A stretch of 41,572 nucleotides of DNA, taken from assembly GCA_026388255.1 (NCBI GenBank), contig JAPLKC010000026.1, positions 1 to 41,572 on the forward strand. Direction: 5' to 3'. This document shows, piece by piece, positions 11,303-12,103 of the stretch (its first letter is position 1; each line of letters starts with the position of its first letter). The position numbers and the translations under genes were made by a program. Below the pieces are notes generated by a model that did no database searches, was not told where the DNA came from, and worked only from the letters and a program-made list of their open reading frames with translations. This stretch comes from Pseudomonadota bacterium. Lineage in GTDB: Bacteria; Desulfobacterota; Syntrophorhabdia; Syntrophorhabdales; Syntrophorhabdaceae.

Positions 11303-12103
11303 ATGTCAATTATAAGGGTTCTGGCAGTTGTTTGCGGGATCTTCCTCCTTGCTGCTTGCAGCGCATCGAGAACCGAAAATAAATGTGTAAATACTAAAAA
11401 GGAGAACAACGATATGACATCAGAAATGGGAAGTCCTGGACGCAACGTTCTGCCTCTCAATACAGAGATACCGATGCCTGCGGGGCAGGAGACGGCAATA
11501 TTCGGTATGGGGTGATTCTGGGGTCCTGATGCCCGGTTCGGGCATAATAGCGGTGTTCTCCGTACTCAAGTCGGATATGCAGGAGGAACAAAGATAAATC
11601 CTTCCTACCACAGCCTTGGAGACCACACCGAGACAATACGTATTTATTATGATTACAATAAGGTTTCTTATGAAGAACTCCTGGAAATCTTCTGGGCCAA
11701 CCATGACCCATTTGCGCGATCCTGGTCAAAGCAGTACAAGTCCATTGTCTTTTACCGTAATGATGAGCAGAAAAGGCTTGCTTTTGAAACAAAGACAAGG
11801 CTTGAAGAGAAATTAAAACAGAAAATATATACGGAGATTGTCCCGGAGAATGGGTTTTACCCTGCGGAGGATTACCACCAGAAATATTATCTCAGGAACA
11901 GTACGGAGTTGATGCGTTTCTTTAAGGATATTTATCCGGAAGATGCTGATTTTGTGGCATCCACCGCTGCGGCCCGCATCAACGGATATATCGGCGGTTA
12001 TGGAAAAGGCCCGGAGCTTGAAAAGAATTTAACCGGAATAGGATTATCTCCCGAAACTGTTAAAAAACTTCTTGTTGTTTTAAATGGAAAGCAGCATCAC
12101 TGA
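11303..12103 (+). CDS. msrA: Lipoprotein MsrA with in-frame UGA at the catalytic position (probable selenoprotein)
   Basis: This peptide-methionine (S)-S-oxide reductase repairs oxidised methionine. The frame is continuous from 11303 to 12103 except for one TGA at 11513-11515. That TGA falls exactly at the catalytic residue of the family's GCFWG motif, read here as GM-G-U-FWG (Sec71). Downstream family motifs are intact in the same frame: QVGYAGG, DHTETIRIYYD and EDYHQKYY. A hairpin fitting the bacterial SECIS follows. The N-terminus has a lipobox, LLAAC, with Cys19, so the enzyme is probably an exported lipoprotein. There are no cysteines after the UGA, so no C-terminal resolving thiol. The ATG at 11303 is preferred over 11270 because of the promoter position; its ribosome site is weak. 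The alternative is a Cys-to-stop nonsense mutation. selA/selB are not in the window. Confidence 0.82.
11529..11545 (+). promoter_or_regulatory. SECIS-like hairpin after the msrA UGA
   Basis: ATGCCCG (11529-11535) and CGGGCAT (11539-11545) form a perfect 7-bp stem with loop GTT. The loop begins with G and starts 20 bases after the UGA. This meets the known bacterial SECIS rule of a short loop with an early G placed about 16-37 bases past the UGA. It lies within the coding region, as bacterial SECIS elements do. Confidence 0.68.

Follow-up and report, generated by a model that had tools for sequence, protein, structure and literature searches.

The msrA gene at positions 11303-12103 of the window (the whole stretch of DNA that was analysed, 41,572 nucleotides) almost certainly encodes a selenocysteine-containing MsrA of the type represented by the Clostridium oremlandii enzyme (CoMsrA). 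The 266-residue product is a predicted lipoprotein and appears to belong to an exported selenocysteine (Sec) form of MsrA that is apparently widespread and little described; Sec in MsrA is already known, and the location outside the cytoplasm is the less described part. The window is an entire contig (C26) of a draft genome (3.83 Mb, 98% complete), and a genome search recovered this MsrA as the only one; all features with window coordinates given here are on the forward strand. Reading of the frame, together with domain and homologue matches, delineates 266 codons followed by a TGA stop, with a single internal stop. The latter, as originally predicted, is a TGA at the catalytic position of the motif (G-U-FWG; 11513-11515, residue 71), which the sequence and the comparison of homologues indicate is read as Sec. 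The expectation that the frame continues as MsrA past this codon is borne out by a full-length family match; domain search delimits the MsrA catalytic domain (PF01625, 1.2e-43) at 11492-11908 and a C-terminal helical domain (PF20939, residues 216-250) at 11948-12052. Downstream of the TGA, comparison of the window with the sister species yields dN of 0.13 versus dS of 0.54, a pattern indicative of persisting purifying selection.

A TGA also appears to be the genuine stop of msrA (12101-12103): in the comparison with the sister species, the frames of the two genomes diverge beyond this codon, and in the sister species it is followed by a ribosome-binding site and then by the next ATG. Reassignment of TGA to a different amino acid throughout the genome would account for the read-through of the in-frame TGA, but this explanation has next to no probability given that msrA itself terminates at TGA, that the Trp of the same motif is encoded by TGG and that the full set of sel genes is present; it was ruled out by the use of TGA stops. 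The sel genes, which the original prediction proposed as a check on Sec decoding, were all found in the genome search: selA (2e-146), selB, selD and selC, with the tRNA-Sec encoded by the last of these scoring 74 bits, above the cut-off. The selD gene (L043:1402-2427) contains an in-frame TGA of its own, within RGAGUASKIG, and SelD of this genome is thus itself a predicted TGA-containing selenoprotein. Among the 14 carriers of TGA-containing msrA that are discussed below, SelB is present in all 13 that were searched, and a tRNA-Sec scores above the cut-off, under stricter filters, in eight. In the remaining six carriers, no tRNA-Sec above the cut-off was found, and all five of these that were searched have selB; the missing tRNA-Sec likely reflects gaps in draft genomes. 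SelB and tRNA-Sec would insert Sec at the UGA, directed by a hairpin located just downstream.

The same codon is TGA across a broad range of homologues. A survey covering 99 genomes, among them that of the window, detected a long-form MsrA homologue in 14, each with a single TGA that always falls on the same codon; 13 of the carriers are relatives in the window's GTDB-style family. Nearly all other MsrA matches in the surveyed genomes consist of the catalytic domain only, with no internal stop. Scanning of contigs from genomes of different phyla yielded 80 loci; 75 of them were automatically readable at the catalytic codon, with TGA in 60 and TGC or TGT in 15. Addition of the 14 family members and removal of four repeated loci produced a comparison set of 70 TGA forms, 56 of them from other taxa, and 15 Cys forms. 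In a tree of 86 rows, in which the deep branches are weak, Sec and Cys forms are intermixed, and about five changes between them are needed. One of the Cys forms, a Dehalococcoidia MsrA (L051:5001-5744), has TGC at the catalytic codon and yet retains a perfect 12-bp hairpin at the place of the SECIS; it falls within a Sec clade (support 98/86) and looks like a recent reversion from Sec to Cys with a fossil SECIS. Separately, six loci of Haloarcula-type archaea (L101, L106, L107, L109, L110 and L126) encode MsrA of a length that accommodates the helical domain, with Cys and no hydrophobic signal, and are followed by a conserved neighbour gene.

The SECIS-like hairpin of the window gene (ATGCCCG-GTT-CGGGCAT, 11529-11545), identified by folding and conservation, consists of two arms (11529-11535 and 11539-11545) and a GTT loop (11536-11538); the 7-bp stem, the loop starting with G and the 20-nt spacing from the TGA to the loop are all as described from the sequence in the original prediction. 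Folding energy alone gives little support: the 48-nt piece that had been proposed for folding gives z = 0.17 and does not stand out, whereas a tight 24-nt piece gives z = -2.95. Longer stretches not being significant, folding energy was dropped as a proof of the SECIS, and conservation was used instead. With positions numbered from the T of the TGA, the stem pairs 20-30, 21-29 and 22-28 are formed in 70 of 70 TGA forms, and the loop is GTT in 68. Pair 19-31, between an Ala or Ser codon in one strand of the stem and the initial base of the next codon in the opposite strand, alternates between G-C and T-A among the TGA forms, that is, the lower stem shows covariation; the lower stem pairs 19-31 and 18-32 exceed all 2000 shuffles, although shuffling ignores relatedness and the counts therefore do not amount to strict probabilities. 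The Gly codon of the stem is GGG in all 70 TGA forms compared to 192 of 966 Gly codons in more distal parts of these genes (Fisher 7e-46), and where Ser follows this Gly, it is encoded by AGY in all 28 cases among the TGA forms (p 4e-15). In the Cys forms, the stem Gly is GGG in five of 15, and pair 20-30 is formed in five of 15. Both comparisons, of TGA forms with Cys forms and of the stem codons with the remaining codons of those genes, show a large contrast, and these patterns indicate that the hairpin is conserved at the RNA level in the TGA forms and mostly lost in the Cys forms; the 70 TGA forms comprise a clean SECIS alignment with covariation.

Because the hairpin is conserved at the RNA level in the TGA forms, the TGA is interpreted as a Sec codon rather than as a nonsense mutation. 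The TGA is one base away from TGC or TGT, so that a mutation or a sequencing error in a Cys-type msrA, leaving a pseudogene, might be envisaged; this is hardly conceivable in view of the same TGA in 14 family genomes and many phyla, the purifying selection downstream of it and the hairpin that is retained in TGA forms but mostly lost in Cys forms. The conserved TGA in combination with the hairpin rules out a pseudogene. Decoding of the UGA as Sec, the core of the original prediction, is thus upheld by the presence of the sel genes, by relatives that carry TGA, not TGC, in the homologous column and by the strong conservation of the hairpin. Standard gene callers, which treat TGA as a stop, would overlook such msrA genes or annotate them in truncated form.

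The best PDB match in the sequence search is the C. oremlandii MsrA (2e-59, residues 64-260), far ahead of ordinary MsrA; the alignment to 4LWJ spans both domains and reaches residue 205 of that structure. The match to PF20939, a Pfam helical domain named for the selenoprotein form, scores 24.5 bits versus a cut-off of 23.7. A fold search with an AlphaFold model ranked CoMsrA first, at about 48% identity; the model, in which Cys stands for Sec, is of moderate confidence (pLDDT 66.5) and was used as support only. The GUFWG motif, the TGA with the SECIS-like hairpin, PF20939 and the lack of a resolving Cys, the features tested for this type, are all found in the window MsrA which, judging from the sequence, is a CoMsrA-type methionine-S-sulfoxide reductase. 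There is indeed no Cys after the UGA, as had been observed; this absence was originally regarded as unusual but is normal for the type, being shared by the C. oremlandii enzyme, which has been characterised and is of the 1-Cys type. The predicted mature chain contains two Cys, both before the UGA, namely Cys19 of the lipobox and Cys28. The latter, located in the linker, is common to the window protein and the sister species only, and this conservation would be compatible with a role as the resolving residue in this genus; such a role is improbable considering that other family members lack Cys28 and that the stretch is modelled with pLDDT below 50.

The N-terminus of the window MsrA, MSIIRVLAVVCGIFLLAAC (11303-11359), contains a basic residue, a hydrophobic stretch and a lipobox (LAAC) preceding and including Cys19, and thus by sequence pattern supports the lipoprotein signal that had been proposed. 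We consider it very probable that the window Sec-MsrA is exported; the general secretion route would deliver the protein, with a predicted lipid anchor at Cys19, and the anchored enzyme would repair oxidised methionine in envelope proteins. Family relatives have ordinary lipoboxes, and in one genus (g8) the lipobox is preceded by a twin-arginine-like RRSF motif; in one MsrA of this genus, the lipobox Cys is lost. As gauged by a simple scan for hydrophobicity and a lipobox pattern, which is crude and not a trained predictor, a hydrophobic or weakly hydrophobic segment is present at the N-terminus of 62 of the 70 TGA forms, accompanied by a lipobox match in 35 of the 62; the other eight TGA forms, one of which is cut by a contig end, have no such segment. 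About a third of the TGA forms, with a hydrophobic segment and no lipobox match, fit a variant interpretation under which the protein is an exported selenoprotein but the N-terminal segment is a membrane anchor or an ordinary signal; for the window protein this is unlikely, given the clear LAAC lipobox and its LVAC counterpart in the sister species. The export segment being typical of the TGA relatives, CoMsrA, which lacks one, may be the exception. No mention of export of Sec-MsrA was found in the literature searched, the coverage of which is incomplete and does not settle priority.

Directly 3' of msrA is a gene for a small, 63-residue rubredoxin-like protein (PF21349; 12155-12346), probably co-transcribed, as suggested by domain search and comparison with the sister species; it has its own ribosome-binding site which, together with the start, is kept in the sister species. 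A HAD hydrolase gene follows, and a divergent gene for an RlmL-like methyltransferase is located upstream of msrA. Across the distant loci compared, no conserved redox partner was found beside msrA; at a few of the loci compared, msrB adjoins msrA.

The inventory of methionine sulfoxide reductases in the genome covered MsrA and MsrB. The sole MsrB (L127:1438-2088) has a lipobox signal and a single further Cys, in RYC, with Thr in the position where CGWPSF-type MsrB has Cys; the MsrB of the sister species has a signal segment and no clear lipobox. Both Msr enzymes of this genome seem to work in the envelope. In the predicted reaction, Sec71 would attack the sulfoxide, with the release of methionine, the established chemistry of the MsrA family. 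Given that the catalytic and helical domains lack a resolving Cys, the oxidised selenium would require an outside reductant. Four CcdA/DsbD-type membrane proteins are encoded in the genome, two of which directly adjoin a thioredoxin, and both of these thioredoxins contain a CIPC motif and begin with an export segment; the two pairs (L145:1439-2639 and L147:1315-2514) are very similar and reside on different contigs. One of these thioredoxins would be the most likely source of electrons for the oxidised selenium, by analogy with Streptococcus pneumoniae, where an exported Msr is partnered by surface thioredoxins and CcdA (PMC3914529). That a CcdA-fed exported thioredoxin is the reductant of the window MsrA has, in our estimate, a little less than an even chance, and the proposal is weakened by the fact that thioredoxin does not serve the characterised CoMsrA as a reductant (PMC4479559). 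Somewhat more tentatively still, all MsrA/MsrB repair in this organism might be extracytoplasmic: Sec-MsrA and the one-Cys MsrB each have a lipoprotein signal and lack the customary resolving Cys, and exported thioredoxins fed by CcdA would recharge both. If so, envelope repair in this organism would form a system that depends on selenium and is recycled by a route unlike the glutaredoxin route of CoMsrA.

Sec at the active site is a feature that the window MsrA shares with eukaryotic Sec-MsrA, such as that of Chlamydomonas. The closest characterised counterpart, CoMsrA (PDB 4LWJ, 4U66), has the same Sec at GUFWG and the same combination of a catalytic and a C-terminal helical domain, both without a resolving Cys; it contains one Sec and no Cys, requires the helical domain and has 20-fold the activity of its own Cys form (PMC4333827, PMC4479559). 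In contrast to the window protein with its N-terminal lipoprotein signal, CoMsrA consists of 209 residues and has its catalytic residue already at position 16, which leaves no space for a signal. Furthermore, CoMsrA uses glutaredoxin as the reductant, not thioredoxin (PMC4479559), whereas the sole glutaredoxin match in the window genome lies within a frame of 94 codons, which has no room for a signal in addition to the domain. With respect to location, the window MsrA resembles PilB of Neisseria (PMC6210582) and the SpMsrAB2-Etrx-CcdA system of Streptococcus pneumoniae (PMC3914529), in which methionine sulfoxide reductases function outside the cytoplasm, and the window genome, too, encodes CcdA and exported thioredoxins. 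However, PilB and SpMsrAB2 are Cys enzymes and MsrA-MsrB fusions, whereas the window MsrA contains Sec and is separate from MsrB, and, unlike in those systems, the CcdA-thioredoxin pairs of the window genome are encoded on contigs other than that of msrA.
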